Source: Promicromonospora sp. MEB111 (lineage in GTDB: Bacteria; Actinomycetota; Actinomycetes; Actinomycetales; Cellulomonadaceae). Taken from it: DNA of 64,000 bases. The position numbers were made by a program, and so were the translations under genes. The DNA is taken from the NCBI RefSeq assembly GCF_030209445.1, contig NZ_JARVSD010000014.1:310001-374000 (forward strand), written 5' to 3'. Position 1 is the first letter of the stretch. Every line of letters starts with the position of its first letter. The notes beneath the pieces are model-generated. The model was not told where the DNA came from. It was given only the letters and a program-made list of their open reading frames with translations, and made no database searches. Shown here piece after piece: positions 46,147-61,784 of this stretch.

Positions 46147-46200
46147 AGCTGCAAAGCTACGCCCATTAGCCAACCGGCGCAAGGCCCTCCGAAAACAAGA

Positions 46201-46257
46201 TGAGTGCGGGATCTTCGCCCTCGGCCGGGGCCGGCCAGGGCGAAGATCCCGCACTCA
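46201..46257. terminator. Perfect 21-bp palindrome after the GH15 gene (TGAGTGC family)
   Basis: Arms 46201-46221 and 46237-46257 are exact complements around a 15-base GGCC-rich loop. The arm sequence (TGAGTGC, GGAT, TTCGCCCT) recurs after the ECF42 gene at 50262-50327. It lies 18 bases past the GH15 stop codon and likely terminates that gene. Confidence 0.8.
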
Positions 46258-46274
46258 GCGGGGGATACGACGGA

Positions 46275-50242: not shown

Positions 50243-50261
50243 CCCGCCCGCCCCGCGAGCA

Positions 50262-50327
50262 CCGTTGAGTGCTGGATATTCGCCCTCGCGAAACGTTGTC
50301 GAAGGGCGAATACCCAGCACTCAACGG
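50262..50327. terminator. 25-bp palindrome between the ECF42 and isomerase genes (TGAGTGC family)
   Basis: Arms 50262-50286 and 50303-50327 pair with one mismatch around a 16-base loop. The arms share TGAGTGCxGGATxTTCGCCC with the element at 46201-46257. It lies between convergent genes and can terminate both; the isomerase stop is two bases away. Confidence 0.8.
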
Positions 50328-50328
50328 T

Positions 50329-51108
50329 CTAGGGGGTGGGGAGCCAGGCGAGGGTCTGCTCCGTTTCCGTCGTGGGGCGGTACTCGCAGCCGACCCAGCC
50401 GGTGTAGCCCGTCGCGTCGAGCGCGCGGAAGAAGGCCCCGAAGTCGATCGTCCCCGTCCCCGGCTCGCCACGGCCGGGGGAGTCGGCGACCTGCACGTGG
50501 CCGACGGCGCCGGCCACGCGACCGATGTCCACCACCACGTCCGCGCCGTTGTTGTGCAGGTGGTAGGCGTCGAAGAGGACGGCGGCGCCGTCGCCCACGC
50601 GGTCGACCACGGCCAGCGCGTCGTCCAGGGTCCGCACGGGGTAGTCCCCGTTCTCGCCGCGCGTCAGGGGCTCGACCAGCACGGTCGCGCCGAGCGCGTC
50701 GACCGCGCGGCGCAGGTTGCGTGTCGCGACCTCGTCCTGGGCCTCGCCCGGGACGCCCGGCAGGCGCTGCCCGTACAGCGCGTTGACGCACGCACAGCCG
50801 GTCGCCTCGACGATCGTGCGGACCACGGCGAGGTTCGCCGCAAGCTCATCGGCCCGGCCGGGGTGCGACACGATGCCGCGCTCACCGCCCGGCATGTCCC
50901 CGGCGAACAGGTTGATCCCCGTCAGCCGCACCTCCGCGTCGTCCAGCGCCCGGACGAACGCGCCGACCTGGGCGGCGGAGGGCTCCGGCGTCTCGAACGG
51001 CCACCAGCACTCCACCGCCTGGAACCCGGCGGCCCGGGCACGGGCGAACCGTTCCGGCAGCGGCACCTCGCTGAACAGGAGGGAGACGTTGGCGGCGAAC
51101 CTGGGCAT
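50329..51108 (-). CDS. hyi: Hydroxypyruvate isomerase-like TIM-barrel protein
   Basis: A 259-residue protein of the xylose isomerase-like/AP-endonuclease-2 TIM-barrel family, closest in pattern to Hyi: MPRFAANVSLLFSEVP, ECWWPFE, a NLFAGDMPGGERG loop, LVEPLTRGENG and LFDAYHLHNNGADV with likely metal ligands. Hyi interconverts hydroxypyruvate and tartronate semialdehyde. GGAGAG lies five bases upstream of the ATG. It is divergent from the GarR-like gene, whose product would use tartronate semialdehyde, so the two could act in sequence. Alternatively it is an isomerase or epimerase for another sugar acid, since this family is broad. Confidence 0.82.
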   Translation of the reverse strand: MPRFAANVSLLFSEVPLPERFARARAAGFQAVECWWPFETPEPSAAQVGAFVRALDDAEVRLTGINLFAGDMPGGERGIVSHPGRADELAANLAVVRTIVEATGCACVNALYGQRLPGVPGEAQDEVATRNLRRAVDALGATVLVEPLTRGENGDYPVRTLDDALAVVDRVGDGAAVLFDAYHLHNNGADVVVDIGRVAGAVGHVQVADSPGRGEPGTGTIDFGAFFRALDATGYTGWVGCEYRPTTETEQTLAWLPTP

Positions 51109-51142
51109 CGAGCTCTCCGATCTTCGGGCATTGACCACGACA

Positions 51143-51158
51143 GGTATATCGAAATACC
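51143..51158. promoter_or_regulatory. Palindrome in the divergent hyi/garR promoter region
   Basis: GGTATATCGAAATACC, a 16-base palindrome with one mismatched pair, centred on TCGA, 35 bases from the isomerase start. Candidate operator for the locus regulator. Confidence 0.5.
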
Positions 51159-51198
51159 CTTCCTCAGGCCAGGGTCGATGCGCAAGCAGGATCGCAGT

Positions 51199-51214
51199 GA
51201 TCAATCGATAGATC
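51199..51214. promoter_or_regulatory. LacI-like operator before the catabolic operon
   Basis: GATCAATCGATAGATC, a palindrome with one mismatched pair and a central CG, 24 bases before the garR-like start. Its TCAATCG-x-TA word recurs upstream of the lacI-like gene at 61818-61827, which suggests both are bound by that regulator. Confidence 0.55.
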
Positions 51215-51237
51215 ATCGAACGAGGGAGTTCGGTCAT

Positions 51238-52122
51238 ATGGCAGTCGTGGGCTTTGTCGGGCTGGGCGTCATGGGGCGGCCGATGGCGGCCAACCTCGTC
51301 CGCGCCGGGCACGAGGTGCGGGCGTTCAGCCGGGGAGCGGCCGGCCGGGCGAGTGCCGCCGAGCTCGGGGTACCGGTCGTGGCGAGCGTGGTCGAGGCGG
51401 TCCGGGGCGCCGACGTCGTGCTCACGATGCTCCCCGACACCCCCGACGTCCGCGCCGTCGCGCTCGGGCCGGACGGCGTGCTGGAGCACCTCGCGCCGTC
51501 GGGCGCCTACATCGACCTGAGCACCATCGAGCCCGGGGCCGCGCGCGAGATCGCGGCACGGTTCACGGAGGCGGGACACGACGTGCTCGACGCCCCCGTC
51601 TCCGGCGGCGAGGCCGGGGCCCGCGAGGGCACGCTCTCGATCATGGTCGGCGGGCCGGCCGACGTGGCCGAGCGGTGGCGCGGCCTGCTCGGCGCGATGG
51701 GCACCACCGTCGTGCGCGTGGGCGAGGCGGGCGGGGGACAGGTGGTCAAGGCCGCCAACCAGCTCGTGGTCGCCGCCCACCTTCAGGCGCTCGCCGAGGC
51801 CGTGGTCTTCCTGGAGGCGCACGACGCCGACGTCGCCACGGGGCTCTCCGTCATCGCGCGCGGGCTCGGCGGCAGCACCGTCATCGACCGCAAGGCGGGC
51901 GGCGTGCTGGCCGGGGACTACACGCCGGGCTTCCGCCTGGAGCTGCACCACAAGGACCTCGGCATCGTCGAGGGTGCCGCGCGCGCCCGCGGGGCGGTGC
52001 TCCCGGTGACCGCCCTGGTCGGCCGGCTCGTCCAGTCGCTGGTGCAGCGCGGGGACGGCGGCCGCGACCACTCGGCGCTGGTGGCGCTGGCCCGCGAGCT
52101 CAACGGGACGGAGGCGCGATGA
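51238..52122 (+). CDS. NAD(P)-dependent 2-hydroxy-3-oxopropionate (tartronate semialdehyde) reductase-like enzyme
   Basis: A 294-residue beta-hydroxyacid dehydrogenase. Rossmann motif VGLGVMGRP (7-15), substrate motif DAPVSGGEAGA (118-128) and catalytic K171 in VVKAANQ are all in place. The family includes GarR/GlxR, which reduce tartronate semialdehyde to glycerate, and 3-hydroxyisobutyrate dehydrogenase; the neighbouring hydroxypyruvate isomerase gene favours the first. Start at 51238, with GAGGGAG about ten bases upstream. First gene of a seven-gene operon and overlaps the next by four bases (ATGA). Confidence 0.85.
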   Translation: MAVVGFVGLGVMGRPMAANLVRAGHEVRAFSRGAAGRASAAELGVPVVASVVEAVRGADVVLTMLPDTPDVRAVALGPDGVLEHLAPSGAYIDLSTIEPGAAREIAARFTEAGHDVLDAPVSGGEAGAREGTLSIMVGGPADVAERWRGLLGAMGTTVVRVGEAGGGQVVKAANQLVVAAHLQALAEAVVFLEAHDADVATGLSVIARGLGGSTVIDRKAGGVLAGDYTPGFRLELHHKDLGIVEGAARARGAVLPVTALVGRLVQSLVQRGDGGRDHSALVALARELNGTEAR

Positions 52123-54218
52123 GCCTGACCACGCAGCAGCCCGGCACCGGCGAACAGGTCCGCCCCGGCTGGTGGGACGAGCCGTTCCAGGTGTTCCAGA
52201 CCAACCTCCGCGAGATCGACGCGGGGCTCGACGTCGAGCGCACGCTGGACGACGTCGAGCGGCACGGCGCGAACGTCTGGCTGCTCAACGTGGGCGGCAT
52301 CCTCTCGCACTACCCGACCGGGCTCGACTTCCAGACCCGCAACCCGCACCTCGCCGGGCGCCCCGGGGGCGACCTCGTCGGGGACGCGCTGGCGGCCGCC
52401 CGGCGCCGGGGCGTCCGGCTGCTGGCCCGGATGGACTTCTCCAAGGTGGCCCCCGCGATCGCCGACGCGCACCCGGACTGGCTCTACGTCTCGCCGGCGG
52501 GCGAGCGGCAGGTCTTCGAGGGGCTGGTCAGCGTCTGCCCCAGCGCCGGGTACTACCAGGAGCGGATCTTCGACGTCCTCGACGAGGTCCTCGACCGCTA
52601 CGCCGTGGACGGCTTCTTCTTCAACTGGTTCGGCTTCAACGAGCGGGACTACGCCGGCCGGGTGCACGGCGTCTGCCACTGCGCGGCGTGCGTCGTGGGG
52701 TTCCGGGAGCACACCGGGCTCGACCGGCTGCCGGACCGCGCGGGCGACGACGGTTACCGGCGCTGGCGCGGCTACGCCACCGCCACCATCGAGGCGCTGA
52801 CGGCGCGGGTGCGGGCCCACATCGCCGCGCGCCGCCCCGACGCCGGGCTGATCCTCGGCACGGCCGCGGACGTGCTGTTCCACGAGGCGAACAACGCGAT
52901 CGGCCGCACGCTGTGGCCGTACGCCACCGGCGAGGCGGTCAGCGCGCTGCGCTCGTCCCGGCCCGGCAAGCCGGTCCTGGTCAACGCCGTCGCGTTCTGG
53001 GACATGCCGTACCGGCTCGCCGACGAGCAGCCCGAGATGCTCGGCCAGTACCTCGCGCAGGCGATCTCGCGCGGCGCCAACCCGTCGACCTACATCATGG
53101 GCCCCACCGGCGGCATCGCCTACGGCGGGCTGGACTCCGCGGCCGCGGTCACGCGGTTCCACCGCGATCATCGGCGCGAGTACACGGGGCTGGCGCCAGC
53201 GGCCGAGGTGGGCCTGGTGCGCCCCGACCCCCTGGACGACGACGGCCGCCACGGCACCGGCACGGCCGAGCACCGCGGCCTGCTCACCGGCCTCGTCGAG
53301 CGGCACGTTCCGTTCGACGTGGTGCCCGTGGGGGCACTGGAGACGCAGGACGTGGACGCGCGGTTCCGGGTGCTCGTGCTGCCCGACCTGCCCTCTCTGC
53401 CGCCGGGCGTCGTCGCGGCGCTCGACCGGTTCGTCCGCGGCGGTGGCTCCCTCGTGGCGACCGGCCGGAGCGGGATCGGCGCCGACGGGTCGGTGGTCGA
53501 CTGGTTCCCCGGGGAGCGGCAGGTCGAGGTGGTCGTCGACCGGGACGCGCTGAAGTCGAGCTACGTGCGGCTCGACGGCGCCGCCCAGGAGGCCGGGGGC
53601 CGGGCCGCCGACGAGGTCGAGGGCGCCGTGCTGGTCCCGCGGCACGGCCGGCACCACCGGCTCGCGTGGCGGTCCGACGTCGTCGGCAGGCATCTGCTGA
53701 TCGAGAGCGCTCCCTACGGGCCGCCGGAGAAGGCGTACGGGCACGTGCCCGGTACCGACCACGTGGCCGGGGAGCGTCGGCACGGCGCCGGCACGGTGGT
53801 CCAGCTGTCCTGGGTCGCCGGCACCGCCTACCTGGACACCCGGCTGACCCGGATCCGGGACGTGGCGGTGGACCTCGTGGTCGAGCGCCTCCTGGACCGG
53901 CCCGAGGGGCGCCTGCCGGTCACGGTCGAGGCCCCGGAGCAGGTCGAGGTCGTCGTCGGACGCTCGGCGGCGGGGCTCGTGGTGCACCTGCTCAACCACT
54001 CCGGCCAGCGCGGCAACGGGTACGGCCCGGCGGTCCCGGTGCACCACGTCACGGTGCGCGCGGCAGGGCTGGCCGGGCGCGCGGCGCGCGCCCTGGCGGG
54101 CGCCGCGTCCGTGCTGGACGACGGCGAGGACCTGCTGGTCCGGATCGCCGACGTGGCCGAGCTCGAGGTGGTCGTGATCGAGGACGGCGGCCCGGCGGCC
54201 CACGGGGGGCTCTCATGA
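52119..54218 (+). CDS. Uncharacterised TIM-barrel glycoside hydrolase-like protein (GHL6/beta-galactosidase-trimerisation type), paralogue A
   Basis: A 699-residue cytoplasmic protein with no signal peptide. The N-terminal half looks like an alpha-amylase-related TIM barrel of the hypothetical glycosyl hydrolase group: GGILSHYPTG (59-68), ARMDFS (103-108), PDWLYVS, YAVDGFFFNWFGFNE (161-175) with D164 as a candidate catalytic residue, and a C-H-C-x2-C cluster (186-191). The middle (about 370-560) resembles the class I glutamine-amidotransferase-like trimerisation domain of GH42 enzymes, and a beta-sandwich follows. Overlaps both neighbours by ATGA. Likely hydrolyses the sugar imported by the operon's ABC transporter. 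Substrate unknown. Confidence 0.7.
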   Translation: MSLTTQQPGTGEQVRPGWWDEPFQVFQTNLREIDAGLDVERTLDDVERHGANVWLLNVGGILSHYPTGLDFQTRNPHLAGRPGGDLVGDALAAARRRGVRLLARMDFSKVAPAIADAHPDWLYVSPAGERQVFEGLVSVCPSAGYYQERIFDVLDEVLDRYAVDGFFFNWFGFNERDYAGRVHGVCHCAACVVGFREHTGLDRLPDRAGDDGYRRWRGYATATIEALTARVRAHIAARRPDAGLILGTAADVLFHEANNAIGRTLWPYATGEAVSALRSSRPGKPVLVNAVAFWDMPYRLADEQPEMLGQYLAQAISRGANPSTYIMGPTGGIAYGGLDSAAAVTRFHRDHRREYTGLAPAAEVGLVRPDPLDDDGRHGTGTAEHRGLLTGLVERHVPFDVVPVGALETQDVDARFRVLVLPDLPSLPPGVVAALDRFVRGGGSLVATGRSGIGADGSVVDWFPGERQVEVVVDRDALKSSYVRLDGAAQEAGGRAADEVEGAVLVPRHGRHHRLAWRSDVVGRHLLIESAPYGPPEKAYGHVPGTDHVAGERRHGAGTVVQLSWVAGTAYLDTRLTRIRDVAVDLVVERLLDRPEGRLPVTVEAPEQVEVVVGRSAAGLVVHLLNHSGQRGNGYGPAVPVHHVTVRAAGLAGRAARALAGAASVLDDGEDLLVRIADVAELEVVVIEDGGPAAHGGLS

Positions 54219-55183
54219 CCGACGTGGTGATCGTCCGGGGCGGTCAGGGCGAACGGGTCGTGGACCAGGTCCGCGCCGTCCACCCCGGGCTCGTCGTCGC
54301 CACCGCGGACGACGCCGGTGCGCTGCGCGCGGCGACGGTCGCGGCGGGCCGCCTCACGGACGACGAGGTCGCGGCGATGCCGCGCCTGGCCTGGGTGCAC
54401 TCCTGGGCGGCGGGCGTGGAGTCCGACGTCGGGCCGGCGCTGCGGCGTCGCGCGACGGGACCTTCCGCGAGGCCGGGCGCGCCGGCAGAGGTGACCGTGA
54501 CGTCGTCGGCCGGGAACGGGGCGGTCCCCCTGGCCGAGCACGCGCTCATGCTCATGCTGATGCTGAGCCGGCAGGCCCTGCGTTGGGGCGACGCTCAGCG
54601 GGGGCACCGCTGGGAGCGGTTCACACACGGCGAGCTCGCCGGACGGACCGTGGGCATCTACGGCTACGGCAACGTCGGGCGCGAGCTCGCGGTGCGGGCG
54701 CGGGCGTTCGGCATGCGCGTGGTGGCGCTCCGTCGTCGGCCCGCGGAGCCCGGCGACCCGGTGGACCGCATGCTGCCCCCGGACGCGGTGGACGAGCTGG
54801 CCGCCGTCAGCGACTTCCTGGTCGTGGCCGCGCCGCTCACCGACCAGACGGCCGGGGCGATCGGGCTGCGGACCTTGCGCGTGCTGGGCCCGGAGGGGCA
54901 CCTCGTGGTGGTCTCGCGCGGCGGGATCGTGCGCGAGGCCGACCTGGTCGCCGCCGTCCGCGACGGTGTGGTCGCCGGGGCAGGCCTGGACGCTCACGCC
55001 ACCGAGCCGTTGCCCCCGGACTCACCCCTGTGGGACCTGCCCCGCACCATCGTCACCCCGCACAACGGGGCCACGACGGCCGCCACCGCGGACCGCGGCA
55101 CGGCGATCTTCCTCGACAACCTGGACCGATGGCTCGCGCGGCGGCCGCTGCGCAACGTCGTCGACGTCGGGCGCCTGCCCTGA
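54215..55183 (+). CDS. D-isomer-specific 2-hydroxyacid dehydrogenase
   Basis: A 322-residue NAD(P)-dependent enzyme. The Rossmann motif IYGYGNVGRE (148-157) and the catalytic residues R235 (VVSRGG), E264 (HATEPLP) and H283 (TPHNG) are present. A typical member reduces hydroxypyruvate, glyoxylate or a sugar-derived 2-keto acid. The catalytic His is followed by N-G rather than the common I-A/V-G, so substrate choice may differ. Fully embedded in the operon by ATGA overlap upstream, with 65 bases before the binding-protein gene. Confidence 0.88.
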   Translation: MTDVVIVRGGQGERVVDQVRAVHPGLVVATADDAGALRAATVAAGRLTDDEVAAMPRLAWVHSWAAGVESDVGPALRRRATGPSARPGAPAEVTVTSSAGNGAVPLAEHALMLMLMLSRQALRWGDAQRGHRWERFTHGELAGRTVGIYGYGNVGRELAVRARAFGMRVVALRRRPAEPGDPVDRMLPPDAVDELAAVSDFLVVAAPLTDQTAGAIGLRTLRVLGPEGHLVVVSRGGIVREADLVAAVRDGVVAGAGLDAHATEPLPPDSPLWDLPRTIVTPHNGATTAATADRGTAIFLDNLDRWLARRPLRNVVDVGRLP

Positions 55184-55248
55184 CACCGCGCCCCGCACGC
55201 ACGCACTCCGTACCACCTCGTACAACGACGTACTGAAAGAAGGACACC

Positions 55249-56535
55249 ATGTCAGACCTCACTCGCCGGTCGTTCCTCACCTGGACGGGGATGGGCGCGC
55301 TCTCGGTCGCTGCGCTCGCCCTCGCCGGCTGCTCCCCGTCCGGCTCCGGAGGGGACGGCTCGATCCGCTTCGCCTGGTGGGGCGGCTCGGACCGGCAGCG
55401 CGCCTACCTGGCGGCGCTCGACGCGTTCACCGCGGAGCACCCCGAGATCAAGGTCGCCCCGGAGTTCGGCGACTACGACGCCTACCAGGAGCGCATGACC
55501 ACACAGATGGCGGCGCGCGACGTGCCCGACGTCTTCTGGATCCCGTCACCCGCCGTCCTGACCTACCGCGACGCGGGGCTGTACCGCGACCTCGACGGCA
55601 TCGGAGGCCTGGACCTCGGCGCGTTCGGTGCGGAGCAGGTCGAGACCTTCCGGCTCGGCGGCGAGCTCAACACGCTGCCCAAGTCGATCTTCAGCCCCGT
55701 GGTGCGCTGGAACACGACGTTCCAGGAGGAGGACGGGGTGTCGCTGCCCGACCAGCTCACCTGGGACGGCCTGGCCGAGCTGCTGGTCGACTACTCGAAG
55801 AACAACGCCGGCGGCCGCAAGGGCACCACCTACGGGCCGTACCACGACATGCCGTTCGAGTCGTTCCTGCGCCAGCGCGGCGAGGACCTGTGGACCGAGG
55901 ACGGCCGGCTCGGGGCGAGCGTGGACGGCGTCGCCGCCTGGATCGACTGGTGGGAGAAGCTGCGGCTCGCGGGCGCGACGACGAGCGTGAGCGAGCAGGA
56001 CGGCATCGAGCCGTCCTGGGCCCAGGTGGGCGACAAGGTGCTGCTCACCTTCGCGAACTCCAACCACATCGTCGACGACGCCCAGGCGTTCCCCGACCAC
56101 GTGTTCGACCAGCGCGACGTGCCGGCCGCCGAGGACGCCGCGGCGGGCTACCACTTCACCTACTACAGCCGGTTCGCCATGTACTCGGGCGTGCCGGACG
56201 ACCGGGTCGAGGCGGCCGCCGCGCTGATGAGCTTCAACCTCAACTCGCCCGAGCTGCTGAGCCTGGTCGGCCTGTCGGCCGGGGCGCCGCCCAACGCGGA
56301 CCTGCTCGACGCGTACGAGCCCGACGCCACGCCCGACGAGCAGAAGGTCATCGCCATCACCCGCGAGATCGCCGGCACGGAGCAGCGTCCGCGGTACGAG
56401 GCGCCCGCCGGGTCGGGCAGCTGGCGTGACCTCATGATCCGCGAGCTCGAGGAGGTGACGCTCGGCCAGAAGAGCGTGCCCGACGCCGCGGCGGCCTTCG
56501 TCGAGGCCGTCGAGGGCGAGATCGCGGGCGCATGA
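55249..56535 (+). CDS. Sugar ABC transporter substrate-binding lipoprotein (family 1, Tat-type signal)
   Basis: A 428-residue binding protein with GAAAGAAGGA before the ATG. The signal begins LTRRSFLTWTG, a twin-arginine motif, and ends with lipobox LALAGC. The mature part shows the CUT1 pattern: IRFAWWGGSDRQRAYLAALDAF, a central DVPDVFWIPSP, and a hinge region with WEKLRLAG. CUT1 binding proteins take oligosaccharides or sugar derivatives. The Tat route suggests it folds before export. It feeds the two permeases that follow; no ATPase gene is here, so a shared MsiK-type ATPase is expected. Confidence 0.92.
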   Translation: MSDLTRRSFLTWTGMGALSVAALALAGCSPSGSGGDGSIRFAWWGGSDRQRAYLAALDAFTAEHPEIKVAPEFGDYDAYQERMTTQMAARDVPDVFWIPSPAVLTYRDAGLYRDLDGIGGLDLGAFGAEQVETFRLGGELNTLPKSIFSPVVRWNTTFQEEDGVSLPDQLTWDGLAELLVDYSKNNAGGRKGTTYGPYHDMPFESFLRQRGEDLWTEDGRLGASVDGVAAWIDWWEKLRLAGATTSVSEQDGIEPSWAQVGDKVLLTFANSNHIVDDAQAFPDHVFDQRDVPAAEDAAAGYHFTYYSRFAMYSGVPDDRVEAAAALMSFNLNSPELLSLVGLSAGAPPNADLLDAYEPDATPDEQKVIAITREIAGTEQRPRYEAPAGSGSWRDLMIRELEEVTLGQKSVPDAAAAFVEAVEGEIAGA

Positions 56536-57512
56536 TGACCCTGACGTCGTCGAAGGACACCGGGCGCCGGGTGCGGGGAGCGCCCGCCGCGGCCGGAGTG
56601 AAGCCGCCGCGGGGCAGGGCCAAACCGTCGGGCGGTACCCGGGGCCAGGGCCTGGTGGCCCACGTCTTCCTGCTGCCGTGGATGATCGGGATGGTCGCCG
56701 TCACCGCCGGCCCGCTGATCGCCTCGGCCGTGCTCGCGTTCACCGACTACGACCTGCTGAGCCCGCCGCAGTTCATCGGGCTCGACAACTTCGTGCGGAT
56801 GGCGGGGGACGAACGGTTCTGGGCCGCGGTCCGCGTGACGCTCGTCTACGTGCTCGTCTCGGTGCCGCTGCAGCTCGGGTTCGCGCTGTTCCTGGCGGTC
56901 GTGCTCGACAAGGGGCTGCGCGGCCTGTCGCTCTACCGCAGCGCCTTCTACCTGCCCTCCCTGCTCGGCGGCAGCGTGGCCATCGCGATCCTGTGGCGAC
57001 AGATCTTCGGCGAGAACGGCCTGGTCAACCACGTCCTGGGCTGGTTCGGCCTGGAGCTGGGCTCGTGGCTGCAGGACCCGTCGCTGGCGCTGTCCACCCT
57101 GGTGGTGCTCAACGTCTGGACGTTCGGCTCGCCGATGGTGATCTTCCTGGCGGGGCTGCGGCAGATCCCCGAGGAGCTGTACGAGGCCTCGATGATCGAC
57201 GGCGCCGGCCGCGTGCGGCGGTTCTGGTCGATCACCATCCCGCTGCTCACGCCGATCATCTTCCTGAACCTCGTGCTGCAGATGATCAGCGCCTTCCAGG
57301 CCTTCACGCAGGCGCACGTGGTCAGCGGCGGCAGCGGCGGGCCCCTGGACTCGACCCTCTTCTACACCCTCTACATCTACCAGCGCGGCTTCGTGAACTT
57401 CGACATGGGGTACGCGTCCGCGATGGCGTGGGTGCTGCTCCTGGTCATCGCCGCCGCCACCGCCGCGAACTTCATCGTGTCGCGGCGCTGGGTCTACTAC
57501 GGAGACGAATGA
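56532..57512 (+). CDS. Sugar ABC transporter permease (MalF/UgpA type)
   Basis: A 326-residue membrane protein. A 40-residue cytoplasmic start rich in Lys, Arg and Pro is followed by six predicted helices (from about residue 45). The EAA loop EASMIDGAGRVRRFWSITIPLL lies near residues 217-238 and contacts the ATPase. ATGA overlaps with the binding-protein gene upstream and the second permease downstream show one transcript. Confidence 0.93.
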   Translation: MMTLTSSKDTGRRVRGAPAAAGVKPPRGRAKPSGGTRGQGLVAHVFLLPWMIGMVAVTAGPLIASAVLAFTDYDLLSPPQFIGLDNFVRMAGDERFWAAVRVTLVYVLVSVPLQLGFALFLAVVLDKGLRGLSLYRSAFYLPSLLGGSVAIAILWRQIFGENGLVNHVLGWFGLELGSWLQDPSLALSTLVVLNVWTFGSPMVIFLAGLRQIPEELYEASMIDGAGRVRRFWSITIPLLTPIIFLNLVLQMISAFQAFTQAHVVSGGSGGPLDSTLFYTLYIYQRGFVNFDMGYASAMAWVLLLVIAAATAANFIVSRRWVYYGDE

Positions 57513-58345
57513 TGGCTGCTTCTTCCCTCAGCCGCGCGGTGCGGCACGTGGTGCTCGTCGTGTTCGTGCTGCTCATGATCTATCCGCTGCTGTGGATGCT
57601 CGTGAGCTCGTTCAAGCCGAGCAACCTCATCCTCTCCCAGACCGGGCTGTTCCCCGCCGAGATCACGCTGGAGAACTACGCCGACGGCTGGGACGCGCTC
57701 GGCTCCCCGTTCAGCCTGTTCCTGGGCAACTCGCTGCTGATCGGCGTCGGCTCCGTGATCGGCAACCTGTTCTCGTGCTCGCTCACGGCCTACGCACTGG
57801 CCCGGCTCAACTTCAGGATGAGCAAGGTCTACCTCGCGCTCACCCTGATGACGATCATGCTGCCGTTCCACGTGCTCGTGATCCCGCAGTACATCCTGTT
57901 CGCGGAGCTGGGGTGGATCAACACCTACATCCCGTTGCTGCTGCCCAAGTTCCTGGCCACGGACGCGGTGTTCATCTTTCTGATGGTGCAGTTCATCCGG
58001 TCCCTGCCTCGGGAGCTCGACCAGGCCGCGATGATCGACGGCGCCGGGCCGTTCCGCATCTTCTGGTCGGTGATCCTGCCGCTGATGCAGCCGGCGCTCA
58101 TCACCACCACCATCTTCACCTTCATCTGGACGTGGAACGACTACTTCGGCCCGCTGCTGTACCTGACCCGGACCGAGCTGTACACGGTCCCGGTGGCGCT
58201 GAAGTCGCTGGTCGACACCGAGACGCAGAGCGGCATCGGCACGATGTTCGCCATGTCGCTGCTGTCCCTGGTGCCGATCGTCCTGTTCTTCGTCTTCGCT
58301 CAGCGCTACATCATCAAGGGCATCGCGACGACGGGAATCAAATGA
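57509..58345 (+). CDS. Sugar ABC transporter permease (MalG/UgpE type)
   Basis: A 278-residue membrane protein with six predicted helices. FVLLMIYPLLWMLVSSFK is the usual first helix and QAAMIDGAGPFRIFWSVILPLM the EAA loop; the end RYIIKGIATTGIK is typical of MalG-type subunits. ATG at 57509 overlaps the upstream stop, a second ATG follows directly. Overlaps the second hydrolase gene by ATGA. Confidence 0.93.
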   Translation: MMAASSLSRAVRHVVLVVFVLLMIYPLLWMLVSSFKPSNLILSQTGLFPAEITLENYADGWDALGSPFSLFLGNSLLIGVGSVIGNLFSCSLTAYALARLNFRMSKVYLALTLMTIMLPFHVLVIPQYILFAELGWINTYIPLLLPKFLATDAVFIFLMVQFIRSLPRELDQAAMIDGAGPFRIFWSVILPLMQPALITTTIFTFIWTWNDYFGPLLYLTRTELYTVPVALKSLVDTETQSGIGTMFAMSLLSLVPIVLFFVFAQRYIIKGIATTGIK

Positions 58346-60450
58346 CTGCTGCGCGCTCAGGACTGGACGGCACGCACCGCTGGACCCAGCTCACCTTCGT
58401 GGAGAACGACCCGCTGGACTTCGACCTCGACGAGTGGGCCGACGTCATCGAGCGGACGGCGTCCACCGCGGTCTGCATCAGTGCGGGCGGCTACGTCGCG
58501 TACTACCCGACCAAGGTGCCGCTGCACCACCGCAGCGCGTACCTGGGCGACCGCGACCTGCTCGGCGAGGTGGTCGACCTCGCCCGCTCGCGGGGGATGG
58601 CCGTGATGGCCCGCGTGGACCCGCACGCCGTGCACCGCGACGTCGTCGAGCAGCGGCCGGACTGGATCGCGCGGACCGAGGACGGCGAGCTCCAGGAGCA
58701 CTGGGCGATGCCCGGCATCTACCTCACCGACGCGTTCGGCGGGTACAGCTGGGAGCTGACCACGGAGGTGCTGCGCGAGATCGCGCGCGACTACGACGTC
58801 GACGCGCTGTTCGCGAACCGGTGGCAGGGGCACGGGCCCGGCTACACCGAGACGGCGGCGGCGGACTTTCGGGCGGCGACAGGGCGCTCGCTGCCGACCA
58901 CGGCCGATCCCGCCGGGGGCGAGGCGTGGGCGACCTACCGCGCCTGGCGGCGCTCGCGGCTCAGCGACCTCGTGGCGCACTGGGACCGGGCCGTGCAGGA
59001 GGTGGCGCCGGCCGTGCGGTTCGTGCCGAACCTCGGCTCGTTCACCGCCGCCGACCTGGAGCCCCGGGTCGCGCGGGCCGTGCCGTTCCTGCTGGTGGAC
59101 CACCAGGCCCGGGGCGACGGCGAGGCGCTCTGGGCGGCGGGCCGGGACGCCAAGCGGGTGCGCGCGCTGCATCCCGGCAAGCCGGTCGGGCTCATCACCT
59201 CGGTGGGGCCGGAGTCCCACGACTTCCGCTGGAAGGACTCGGTCAACGCGGCGGTCGAGACCACGGGGTGGATCGTCGACGGGTTCGTGCACGGCGCCTT
59301 CCCGTGGTTCACCAAGTTCGCCGCCAAGATCCACGACCCGCGCTGGATACCCGCGGTGGAGCGGGCGTTCGGGCTGCACCGAGCGGTGGCCGGCGGGCTC
59401 GCCGGCGCGCGACCTGTCGCGGAGGTGCTCGTGTGGGACGCGGACGAGCGCGCGGCGTCCGAGCGGGTGCGGGACGCGGCGTCCGGCGTCTACCAGGTGC
59501 TGGTCGAGCTGGGCGTCCCGTTCGAGTACGTGGGGCCGGGGTCGCTGTCGACACTGTCGCGCCCCGGCGTCCGGCTCGTGGTCGTGCCCGAGGTACCCGT
59601 GCTCGACGCCGCGGCGGCGGACGCCCTGCGGGCGTTCGCCGAGGGCGGCGGCGCGCTGCTGCTCACCGGCGGCGGGCCGGACGTCCCGGGCCGCGGGCCG
59701 CTGGTCCGGGACCTGCTGGGGGTCGACGTCGTCGAGCGGCGCGGTGGGGTCGTGCGCAACAACTACGTGCAGCGCGAGCCGGGCGGCGCGCTCCAGGACG
59801 GCTTCGGCGACGCCCGCAGGGTCGTGGGCGGTACCCGGCTGGTCCGGTTCGGCGTGCCGGACGGCGCGAGCGGTATCGACGTCTCGTGGCGCTTCGTGCC
59901 GGACCACCCGGACCTGCCGATGGAGGAGGTCTACCCGAGGTCGGCAGCGACGGACCCGGCGGTCCTCGGCGGCGCCGTCGGCGCGGGCCGGGCCGACGTC
60001 GTCGGCTTCAACGTCACCGAGCTGTACTGGCAGGCGCTCCAGGCCGACCACCTGACGCTGCTGGACAACCTCGTGCGCCGCGGGCTGGGCGGGGGCCGGG
60101 CCGCCGAGGTGCGCGGTCCGGGCGTGCTCGACGTCGCCACCTGGGCCGGCGACCGATCGTTCACCGTGCTGGCCGCCAACCTGACCGACCCGATGATGAT
60201 GCGCGGGCAGCGCCGGGCGGTCTCGCCGATCGACGGCGTGCGGGCCGTGTTCGACCTCGACCGGGTCGGCGCACTGGCCGGTTCGCCCGTGCCGCAGGAG
60301 CCGGCCGACGCCGGACCGGGCGCCGGGCTCCGGGTGGAAGTGCTGGTCGGGGAGGTCTGGGAGCGGGCGGACGTGACCGCGTCCGCCAGACGGATCGAGG
60401 TGTCGCTGCCGCCGGTCCGGGAGCTCGCCGCGGTCCACCTGACCTGGTGA
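58342..60450 (+). CDS. Uncharacterised TIM-barrel glycoside hydrolase-like protein, paralogue B
   Basis: A 702-residue cytoplasmic protein, no signal peptide. It lines up with the operon's other hydrolase: GGYVAYYPTK (49-58) against GGILSHYPTG, ARVDPH against ARMDFS, RPDWIA against HPDWLY, and YDVDALFANRW (151-161) against YAVDGFFFNWF, with D154 matching D164. It lacks the C-x-C-x2-C cluster. A C-terminal GATase-like region (about 370-560, VVVPEVPVLDAAAADALRAF, GGALLLTGGG) and a beta domain follow. Two diverged paralogues in one operon suggest two linkages or two steps on one substrate. Family function is not established. Confidence 0.7.
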   Translation: MTAARSGLDGTHRWTQLTFVENDPLDFDLDEWADVIERTASTAVCISAGGYVAYYPTKVPLHHRSAYLGDRDLLGEVVDLARSRGMAVMARVDPHAVHRDVVEQRPDWIARTEDGELQEHWAMPGIYLTDAFGGYSWELTTEVLREIARDYDVDALFANRWQGHGPGYTETAAADFRAATGRSLPTTADPAGGEAWATYRAWRRSRLSDLVAHWDRAVQEVAPAVRFVPNLGSFTAADLEPRVARAVPFLLVDHQARGDGEALWAAGRDAKRVRALHPGKPVGLITSVGPESHDFRWKDSVNAAVETTGWIVDGFVHGAFPWFTKFAAKIHDPRWIPAVERAFGLHRAVAGGLAGARPVAEVLVWDADERAASERVRDAASGVYQVLVELGVPFEYVGPGSLSTLSRPGVRLVVVPEVPVLDAAAADALRAFAEGGGALLLTGGGPDVPGRGPLVRDLLGVDVVERRGGVVRNNYVQREPGGALQDGFGDARRVVGGTRLVRFGVPDGASGIDVSWRFVPDHPDLPMEEVYPRSAATDPAVLGGAVGAGRADVVGFNVTELYWQALQADHLTLLDNLVRRGLGGGRAAEVRGPGVLDVATWAGDRSFTVLAANLTDPMMMRGQRRAVSPIDGVRAVFDLDRVGALAGSPVPQEPADAGPGAGLRVEVLVGEVWERADVTASARRIEVSLPPVRELAAVHLTW

Positions 60451-60559
60451 CGGCGGCAGTGGTGGCGCGGCCGGCGGGCCGGAGGCGGCGCCCTCTCGGG
60501 CGAGAAGGTGCGTGGAGGACCACTCGCACCTACGGTAGGTGCCGGCTGGGCTGAACTGC

Positions 60560-60634
60560 GTTCGGCTGAAGCACGGCTGATTCACCCGGGCCGGATTGTC
60601 CAGCCTGAGTGAATCGGCCGTGCCCAGGCCGAAC
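60560..60634. terminator. Imperfect 26-bp hairpin between convergent genes
   Basis: Arms 60560-60585 and 60609-60634 pair with five mismatches; the inner eleven bases pair almost fully (CGGCTGATTCAC region). It ends the seven-gene operon and can also stop the convergent lacI-like gene. The rest of the 272-base gap holds nothing else that I can identify. Confidence 0.65.
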
Positions 60635-60722
60635 GAAATGCGGCTGTGCCGGCCACCCTTGCCGGAGGTGTGCTCACCTGCTCGCCTCCCCTCAGGCGGC
60701 TCTACGGCGTCCGCCGATGGTG

Positions 60723-61784
60723 TTACTGCCCGGGTGCCCGTCCGGTCGAGCCGCGGACGATCAGCGCGGGGCGCTCCAGCGGCACGGGCTCCTCGACGGT
60801 CTCGCCCAGCAGGGTCAGCAGCTTGGCCGCCGCCGCGCGGCCGCGCTGGAACGCGAACCGCTGGACCGTCGTCAGCGGCGGGTCCACCCACTCGCCGAGC
60901 GTGAGGCCCTCGAAGCCCACCACGGAGATGTCGTCGGGCACCCGGAGGCCCGTCGCCTGGATCGTCCGCATCCCGGCGATCGCCATGGTGTCGGTGCCGT
61001 ACAGGATCGCCGTCGGCCGCACCGGGCCGGCCAGCAGGGCCGAGGTCTCCTCCGCCGCGCGCGCCGGCGAGTACTCGACCGGGACCACGGCGTGCGGTCG
61101 CAGCCCGTGGTCCGCCAGGCGCTGGACGAAGGCCTCGCGGCGGAGCTCCGGCAGCACGAAGTGCCGGGGCCCGCTGATGAACGCGACGCGCTCGTGGCCC
61201 AGGGACACGAGGTGGTCCACGGTCTCCGCGATGCCGGCGCTCGGCGGGTCGGCGTCGACGTACTCGATGGCGCCGGGCTGCCACGGGGCCCCGACGAGCA
61301 CCGCGGGGAGGCCGAGCCGGGACATGAGCTCGGGCCGGGTGTCGCTGACCCGGGAGTTGGTGAGGATGATCCCGTCCATCCGCTGGCGCTCGGCGAGCGT
61401 GCGGTAGAAGTGGTCCTCGTCGTGCTGGCCGGTGATGAAGACGTTCAGCAGCAGCCCGTACTCCCGCGGGCTGAGCACCGACTCGATGCCGGAGATGAAG
61501 TCCATGTTCCCGGCGCCGACGCCCGGCACCTTGCTGTCGCTCGTCAGCACCAGCCCGATCGCCTGCGAGCGTGCCGTGCGCAGCGCGATGGCGGCGGCGT
61601 TGGGGCGCCAGTTGAGCTTGCGGGCGGCCTCGCGGATCCGCTCCGACGTCGCCTCCGAGATGCGGCCGTTCCCGTTGAAGACCTTGGAGACGGCCCCCGG
61701 CGAGACGCCAGCCAGCGCGGCCACGTCGCTGATGGTCACACGGCCGCTTCCCCGCGATCGGGGCGTTGTCCTGGGTGTTGTCAT
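60723..61784 (-). CDS. LacI-family transcriptional regulator
   Basis: A 353-residue repressor. Residues about 15-65 form the LacI HTH: RVTISDVAALAGVSPGAVSKVFNGNGRISEATSERIREAARKLNW, read here in two parts around residue 35, with the minor-groove hinge helix after it. The rest is a periplasmic-binding-protein-like effector domain (GLVLTSD, DGIILTNSR, FISGPRHF, ILYGTDTMAIAG, DDISVVGFEG). It is convergent with the catabolic operon and shares a TCAATCG-x-TA word between its own promoter and the operon's, so it probably controls both in response to the imported sugar. Confidence 0.93.
   Translation of the reverse strand: MTTPRTTPRSRGSGRVTISDVAALAGVSPGAVSKVFNGNGRISEATSERIREAARKLNWRPNAAAIALRTARSQAIGLVLTSDSKVPGVGAGNMDFISGIESVLSPREYGLLLNVFITGQHDEDHFYRTLAERQRMDGIILTNSRVSDTRPELMSRLGLPAVLVGAPWQPGAIEYVDADPPSAGIAETVDHLVSLGHERVAFISGPRHFVLPELRREAFVQRLADHGLRPHAVVPVEYSPARAAEETSALLAGPVRPTAILYGTDTMAIAGMRTIQATGLRVPDDISVVGFEGLTLGEWVDPPLTTVQRFAFQRGRAAAAKLLTLLGETVEEPVPLERPALIVRGSTGRAPGQ

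Follow-up and report, generated by a model that had tools for sequence, protein, structure and literature searches.

A LacI-associated locus of Promicromonospora sp. MEB111 that combines two GHL6 enzymes with genes for three-carbon hydroxy and keto acids

Genes and promoter of the locus

We analyzed a window of 64,000 nucleotides (positions 310001-374000 of contig C29) from the 6.23 Mb genome of Promicromonospora sp. MEB111 and describe a locus in it that encodes two enzymes of the Pfam family GHL6 ("hypothetical glycosyl hydrolase 6", PF14871), here named HydA and HydB, together with a sugar importer and enzymes of families that act on three-carbon (C3) hydroxy and keto acids. The locus comprises nine genes, all of them intact, namely a divergent gene for a Hyi-like protein, a seven-gene operon and a convergent gene for a LacI-family regulator, and Pfam backs the family assignment of every one of them. 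Genes and predicted operators are listed with their positions in the window; gene ranges include the stop codon, and the two palindromes have no strand.

50329-51108, minus strand: hydroxypyruvate-isomerase-like protein (Hyi-like, PF01261), 259 aa; PF01261 127.6 bits
51143-51158: predicted LacI operator O1, GGTATATCGAAATACC, a palindrome in the Hyi/GarR divergent promoter
51198-51215: predicted second LacI-type palindrome O2, TGATCAATCGATAGATCA; chance expectation 0.01 per window at up to 3 mismatches
51238-52122, plus strand: GarR-like tartronate semialdehyde reductase of the beta-hydroxyacid dehydrogenase family; best NCBIfam model TIGR01505, 306.6 bits
52119-54218, plus strand: HydA, GHL6 enzyme, 699 aa; PF14871 87.8 bits, cut-off 35
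54215-55183, plus strand: D-2-hydroxyacid dehydrogenase, candidate hydroxypyruvate reductase; PF02826 160.1 bits
55249-56535, plus strand: CUT1-type sugar-binding lipoprotein; SBP_bac_8 73.3 bits
56532-57512, plus strand: ATP-binding cassette (ABC) sugar permease 1; PF00528 49.5 bits
57509-58345, plus strand: ABC sugar permease 2; PF00528 64.7 bits
58342-60450, plus strand: HydB, GHL6 enzyme, 702 aa; PF14871 61.9 bits, cut-off 35
60723-61784, minus strand: LacI-family regulator; PF00356 and PF13377 above cut-off

Five of the six operon junctions are 4-base overlaps (ATGA), and the remaining one, between the dehydrogenase and lipoprotein genes, is a gap of 65 bases. A preliminary description of this locus had proposed the same layout, and gene calls and Pfam agree with it. 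All nine genes occur in the same order in six other loci (L004, L005 and L008-L011 in our numbering), and from this conserved order the arrangement is more than a product of chance. The nearest HydA loci found, with 78-85% identity, belong to Promicromonospora. Binding protein and two permeases are present as in a CUT1 ABC sugar importer; no ATPase gene lies among the locus genes, and a shared ATPase was not searched for elsewhere in the genome. Judged by eye, the lipoprotein begins with what we take to be a twin-arginine-like start and a lipobox. In the case of the D-2-hydroxyacid dehydrogenase, no NCBIfam model was above its cut-off among the matches listed.

Family, fold and active site of HydA and HydB

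HydA and HydB share 27% identity across 402 residues (E = 1e-19), and by eye no signal peptide is seen in either. This agrees with the earlier proposal of a pair of related enzymes with a triosephosphate isomerase (TIM) barrel and a GH42M-type domain, lacking signal peptides and belonging to an uncharacterised branch, to which the name GHL6 can now be given. The family is rare, as a match at E 1e-9 was obtained in only 4 of 246 genomes of the phylum, the host's own included. In an open-access library we found no paper under PF14871 and none that combines the partner enzymes described below; many of the papers that came up for the name GHL6 match it by coincidence of letters, judging by their titles.

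AlphaFold models of HydA and HydB, with mean predicted local distance difference test (pLDDT) values of 89.0 and 86.6, respectively, were compared with known structures using Foldseek. For both models the first-ranked structure was the GH151 alpha-L-fucosidase ALfuk2 (6tvk), with E = 1.6e-34, template modelling (TM) scores of 0.72/0.76 and 17% identity in the case of HydA, or E = 3.4e-33, TM scores of 0.75/0.80 and 16% identity in the case of HydB. GH42 enzymes followed in the ranking and GH164 came lower. Similarly, a joint profile of the HydA and HydB subfamilies matches 6tvk with E = 7.2e-28. Fold and domain order of both models are those of GH151, as in 6tvk and Mfuc3, and the latter, another GH151 enzyme, is reported to match GHL6 (PMC4723247).

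The preliminary description had likened HydA and HydB to GH42 and to hypothetical glycosyl hydrolase groups. The latter holds, as Pfam places them in GHL6, whereas the top structural match is GH151 and not GH42. The TIM barrel and the trimerisation domain are alike in GH42 beta-galactosidases, and HydA also shares with them the domain PF08532 (above cut-off in HydA, not in HydB) and a Cys cluster. However, the GH42 catalytic domain PF02449 is not reached, with 17.3 bits against a cut-off of 21 for HydA and no listed match for HydB, which led us to reject GH42 membership; true GH42 genes sit separately beside HydB orthologs. The cluster C186-H-C188-x2-C191 is present in HydA and absent from HydB, and to this extent the former observation stands for the pair of the window. 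As a distinction between the two enzymes it fails, since the same cluster is found in one GH151 chain and one GH42 chain and a Cys occupies the C188 column in four HydB orthologs (L016, L035, L127 and L129), and C-x-C-x2-C was therefore discarded as a hallmark of HydA.

According to the study on 6tvk, its nucleophile is D154 on barrel strand β4, its acid/base residue is E235 on β6, and H503, supplied by the neighbouring subunit, completes the active site (PMC10154630). Asp 154 aligns to N169 of HydA and to N159 of HydB in three sequence alignments (the A1 profile alignment ends just short of this position), so that in both proteins Asn is found instead of the GH151 nucleophile. Likewise, H503, which is residue 532 in the chain numbering of the alignments (+29), is replaced by the Glu of a PPE/PME motif, E537 in HydA and E528 in HydB. 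The alignments stop outside E235; by our own strand count on the models, E256 of HydA and D253 of HydB lie in the sixth barrel strand. The residues that stand out as active-site candidates are D106, N169, E256 and E537 in HydA and D93, N159, D253 and E528 in HydB, and D164/D154, near which paired carboxylates had been suspected, do not form an evident catalytic pair.

An alignment of 77 rows was made, of which two duplicates and four GH42 proteins were set aside. The Asp(β3)-Asn(β4)-Glu/Asp(β6) pattern is present in all 68 aligned N-type rows, near copies remaining among them, and the PPE-type Glu in 66 of them. Three rows from one genus form a D-type outgroup with Tyr at the β3 column, Asp at β4 and a GH151-like look. 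A quick tree of 73 rows places these three apart from the rest and assigns HydA and HydB to two distinct clades, both of which contain actinobacterial as well as alphaproteobacterial proteins; it carries Shimodaira-Hasegawa-like approximate likelihood ratio (SH-aLRT) supports only, with long branches flagged and deep placements unsure, and its group A takes four label changes, as a few other rows fall inside. A recent duplication giving rise to HydA and HydB is unsupported by these separate clades of mixed membership, and we infer that the two are old branches of GHL6 that are related to GH151.

At the sequence level, HydA and HydB are members of GHL6 in which the GH151 nucleophile is lost. 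They differ from GH151 by an identity of only 16-17%, by Asn for D154, by Glu for H503 and by their C3-acid gene neighbours. By their catalytic residues they do not belong to GH151, the nearest characterised CAZy family, in line with the former view of an uncharacterised family, and there is a fair chance that these enzymes merit a family of their own.

Gene neighbourhoods of HydA and HydB in relatives

A HydB profile was searched against 396 genomes drawn from the order of the host. Matches at E 1e-40 were obtained in 20 genomes, 16 of them at 1.6e-227 or better, and the next match was at 3.2e-101. HydA is present in all 16 genomes with a HydB ortholog, at no more than 12 kb from HydB by coordinates, and in seven further genomes HydA occurs without a HydB ortholog. 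Both Hyi and GarR are found in the HydB-ortholog cluster of 15 of the 16 genomes. The 16 clusters differ in how the genes are ordered and oriented and in whether the regulator is of the LacI or the GntR type, and the linkage is therefore more than shared order. When 38 HydA loci, some of them short or broken, were searched with tblastn, homologues of GarR and of the 2-hydroxyacid dehydrogenase were detected in 29 loci each and a Hyi homologue in 12; some of the hits with 33-40% identity may be paralogues.

Judged from gene neighbourhoods, the link of the GHL6 pair to C3-acid genes is strong. It recurs in relatives and across phyla, which bears out the former suggestions that the Hyi and GarR genes are linked to the two hydrolases and that the latter are tied to enzymes of hydroxypyruvate, tartronate semialdehyde and glycerate. 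GarR-like proteins and 2-hydroxyacid dehydrogenases often have paralogues, and the low identity of some neighbourhood hits would agree with HydA and HydB being ordinary fucosidase- or galactosidase-type enzymes in the chance company of C3-acid genes for general metabolism. We find this hardly credible, as the partnership outlasts rearrangement and changes of transporter, regulator and phylum.

HydB orthologs with about 38-43% identity are found on plasmids of rhizobia, Agrobacterium, Martelella and Roseinatronobacter. From 46 plasmid records that match HydB, 12 loci were examined, with tblastn for the poorly annotated ones. Hyi was found in all 12 (in pieces in L134) and GarR in 10, together with a GH42 gene in seven and a MOFRL glycerate kinase gene in two, while three loci carry neither of the latter. 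In L134, from Neorhizobium galegae, the GH42 gene is in pieces as well. The importer of the annotated loci is an oligopeptide-type ABC system, and the binding protein of L125 belongs to PF00496, unlike the CUT1-type protein of the window. A HydA relative of Ensifer (L135) has a MOFRL kinase gene 2.6 kb off.

In Sphingobium, ten records gave matches and two plasmids (L150 and L151) were examined. On both of them, genes for a cyclase, a short-chain dehydrogenase/reductase (SDR), GlxR, Hyi, a MOFRL glycerate kinase and an LctP-family permease lie between the HydB-like and the HydA-like gene. Both GHL6 proteins of L151 start with what we take to be twin-arginine-like export signals. If the two enzymes work outside the cytoplasm and a lactate-type permease takes over from there, the useful product of the GHL6 pair in Sphingobium would likely be a small acid, and this arrangement provides the strongest single hint to the product.

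Glycerate kinase genes complete some of the clusters. A PF02595 kinase gene adjoins GHL6 and C3 genes in L029 and L075 and, by sequence similarity, in L076, and both L022 and L028 have a further member of the PF02595 kinase cluster at their margins. The DUF4147/MOFRL glycerate kinase family occurs in clusters of Agrobacterium vaccinii, Sinorhizobium medicae and Sphingobium. In the host genome, one PF02595 glycerate kinase is above cut-off (C29:406747-407865), about 33 kb past the window. The preliminary description was correct in that the window lacks a kinase, but the genome has one and some relatives carry it within the cluster.

Some further observations were made in these neighbourhoods. 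ThuA and Gfo/Idh/MocA genes, which occur in 3-keto-sugar pathways, lie near HydA in L080 (by Pfam) and in L022, L028 and L030 (by similarity). The HydA/HydB cluster of L079 (genome G245) also has a GH3 gene and a 3-hydroxyacyl-CoA-dehydrogenase-like gene. One TAG lies within the HydA match of each of three congeneric genomes (L113, L114 and L115), and in one of those genomes a 693-aa open frame is called at this position (L074). HydB relatives were not detected in phage records by tblastn with an Agrobacterium ortholog as query, nor were relatives of the window HydB found in viral contigs by a search reaching close relatives only.

Proposed pathway, substrate leads and regulation

The Hyi of the window obtains 251.1 bits with its best NCBIfam model TIGR03234 (cut-off 353.45), and GarR obtains 306.6 bits with TIGR01505 (cut-off 340.75) and 198.5 with the 3-hydroxyisobutyrate dehydrogenase model. 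Four of nine Hyi proteins scanned from relatives are above the TIGR03234 cut-off (L125, L126, L129 and L146) and five are below (L005, L012, L035, L074 and, with 348.4 bits, L151). Seven of eight GarR proteins are above the TIGR01505 cut-off (L012, L074, L125, L126, L129, L146 and L151), L009 being below with 309.6 bits. The NF043033 (OtnI) cut-off is passed by five of the nine Hyi proteins of relatives, among them that of L151, which fails TIGR03234, as would be expected if Hyi and GarR homologues served as 2-oxo-tetronate isomerase and tetronate dehydrogenase on a threonate- or erythronate-like four-carbon fragment. Such a route is very improbable, because the window Hyi scores 251 bits with the hydroxypyruvate isomerase model and 198 with NF043033, GarR homologues reach much better scores with the tartronate semialdehyde model than with the one for L-threonate, and the kinases seen belong to glycerate-kinase families.

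The glyoxylate/glucarate C3 pathway (Hyi, GarR/GlxR and glycerate kinase) employs the same enzyme families as are found in the locus and, for the kinase, elsewhere in the host genome. However, the locus has no aldolase gene and presents GHL6 enzymes and a sugar importer instead, and glyoxylate carboligase was not found above cut-off in the host genome, with 374.5 bits against 711.2 as the best score. Because of this lack of a carboligase, a glyoxylate/allantoin role for Hyi and GarR is not favoured.

On balance we lean towards a LacI-controlled operon that frees a C3 hydroxy or keto acid from an imported carbohydrate conjugate and converts it to glycerate. LacI would repress the operon by binding to the operators predicted in the Hyi/GarR divergent promoter. 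The lipoprotein and the two permeases would import the compound with the help of an ATPase encoded elsewhere, and in the cytoplasm HydA and HydB would split it and release a three-carbon hydroxy or keto acid, most likely hydroxypyruvate. In accordance with their families, Hyi would convert hydroxypyruvate to tartronate semialdehyde and GarR the latter to D-glycerate, the 2-hydroxyacid dehydrogenase might offer another way of turning hydroxypyruvate into glycerate, and the single chromosomal glycerate kinase would pass glycerate to glycolysis. For bond breaking, the β6 Glu/Asp may act as general acid and the β3 Asp as base or nucleophile, with the β4 Asn and the Glu from the Rossmann-like domain of the neighbouring subunit shaping the active site. 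The release of hydroxypyruvate, these catalytic roles and the kind of substrate are what we infer at present.

Several points weigh against this proposal. We know of no natural glycoside of hydroxypyruvate, and with the GH151 nucleophile lost, HydA and HydB could be non-hydrolases. Hyi and GarR of the window are both under their NCBI cut-offs, and the four other actinobacterial Hyi proteins scanned are below theirs, too. GarR was not found in 9 of the 38 HydA loci, some of these being short or broken, or at the two HydB loci of Neorhizobium galegae (L134 and L149), and a glycerate kinase is present in a minority of clusters. Some clusters contain sugar-acid dehydratase-like and aldolase-like genes, which would be an alternative source of tartronate semialdehyde. 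Finally, genome G245 has HydA and HydB but neither Hyi nor GarR within 20 kb; instead, a dihydroxyacetone-kinase-family gene and a gene for an isomerase-fold protein (by eye) are found there. If HydA and HydB were lyases or retro-aldolases that cut a C6 keto-uronate or a comparable sugar acid straight into C3 units, this kinase gene, which lies in the same gene run, would fit dihydroxyacetone as the other product, and the change of the GH151 nucleophile from Asp to Asn, seen in all 68 rows other than the D-type outgroup, would be in agreement with it. Still, the kinase evidence comes from one genome, fold and domain order are those of true glycosidases, and GH42 glycosidase genes are co-encoded at 7 of the 12 alphaproteobacterial loci, which makes a lyase or aldolase function quite unlikely.

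With regard to the substrate of the proposed hydrolysis, the solved chain nearest to the lipoprotein of the window is YesO (5z6b, E = 1.6e-20); an unnamed solute-binding protein comes second and 2uvg, which we take to be TogB, lower (E = 1.7e-17). For the binding protein of the Agrobacterium cluster the nearest solved structure is SPH1118 (E = 1.6e-94). Published work describes a rhamnogalacturonan I (RG-I) trisaccharide with YesO and the binding of pectin by SPH1118 (PMC7596534, PMC9314435, PMC7055323). Although YesO ranks first among the solved binding proteins, the YesOPQ and TogMNAB importers of pectin oligosaccharides are distant from the lipoprotein of the window, and the RG-I locus of the host has a binding protein of its own with 24% identity to it. 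That locus lies on contig C12 with genes for an RG-I lyase, UxaC and rhamnose, and this stretch is a pectin/glucuronate/rhamnose region. Within 40 kb (L142 and L143), GH67, UxaC, a mannitol-dehydrogenase-family protein, RG-I lyase and rhamnose mutarotase/isomerase are encoded. In the host genome no GH28 match was obtained, and GH88/105 gave a sub-threshold match only. Pectic oligosaccharides are thus a weak lead to the substrate.

Following this lead, a galacturonate-containing oligosaccharide might be imported and HydA and HydB might be glycosidases that free a uronate. Oxidation would turn the uronate into a hexarate, from which an aldolase would produce pyruvate and tartronate semialdehyde, the substrate of GarR. 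The nearest solved binding proteins of two transporter types (YesO and SPH1118) are pectic. In L036 and L081 the surroundings of HydA or HydB include enolase-superfamily and RraA-like genes, and L128 has an enolase-superfamily gene, too, although no specific function could be given to these enolase-superfamily genes. GH42 genes are present at 7 of the 12 alphaproteobacterial loci, and the host possesses the RG-I lyase, UxaC and rhamnose genes, if on another contig. Uronate dehydrogenases are among the matches of the SDR genes in L080/L081, though not top-ranked, and SDR, RraA-like and enolase-superfamily genes of some relatives may keep a uronate route alive. For the operon of the window we regard it as unlikely, since the locus contains no dehydratase or aldolase gene and most other clusters show no recognisable one, Hyi would be superfluous, the LctP permease of Sphingobium is ill-suited to uronate, and the separate binding protein at the host RG-I locus and the lack of GH28 and of GH88/105 above cut-off also speak against it.

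Beyond the release of a C3 acid in this one operon, it is possible, and we put it forward tentatively, that the Asn-type GHL6 enzymes form a new family distinct from GH151. Their unusual site, made up of Asp, Asn, Glu/Asp and a Glu contributed by the adjacent subunit, would free hydroxypyruvate or a similar C3 acid from plant- or soil-derived carbohydrates of a widespread, unrecognised class, and catabolic modules would have been built around these enzymes repeatedly in several lineages. GH151, the characterised relative met here, depends on an Asp that the Asn-type branch of GHL6 has lost. The recurring partnership with C3 enzymes, assembled anew with other transporters and kinases, predicts the released product, so that the function can be tested by a product assay, and it may point to an unrecognised class of C3-acid-bearing carbohydrates in soil and plants.

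The predicted operator O1 is a conserved palindrome with a central CG at the promoter that would be controlled, as expected for an operator of LacI-type regulators. It was detected in nine of nine aligned divergent promoters, exactly in five and with 1-2 changes in four, with a chance expectation of 0.04 per window at up to 3 mismatches; it was not found at L006, L012, L013, L023 and L035. O2 is palindromic in the window, L005, L007 and L008 and imperfect in L004, and it was not listed for L009-L011 or L082. In the genome, O1 has one site at up to 2 mismatches and one more at 3, and a reversed control pattern gave 1. A wider LacI regulon was not seen, as there is no second genome site at up to 2 mismatches, and for this reason the predicted regulon looks local.

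The Hyi side of the locus is bordered by a further feature, which has no strand:

50261-50328: palindromic hairpin that separates an ECF-like (extracytoplasmic function) sigma factor gene (named by eye) from the Hyi gene, the two genes converging on it; member of a repeat family found across the genome

Its arms of 26 bases are 96% complementary, and the folded RNA (50255-50334) reaches -51.1 kcal/mol with a z of -8.2. The arm pattern occurs 45 times on the forward and 42 times on the reverse strand of the genome at up to 2 mismatches, as compared to 0 for a reversed-pattern control, and many of the matches are paired at a distance of about 42 bases. Another hairpin of the same repeat family lies at 46199-46259, and a looser pattern also matches L007 and L008. 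Possibly, the hairpin is a bidirectional terminator or an element resembling repetitive extragenic palindromic (REP) sequences.

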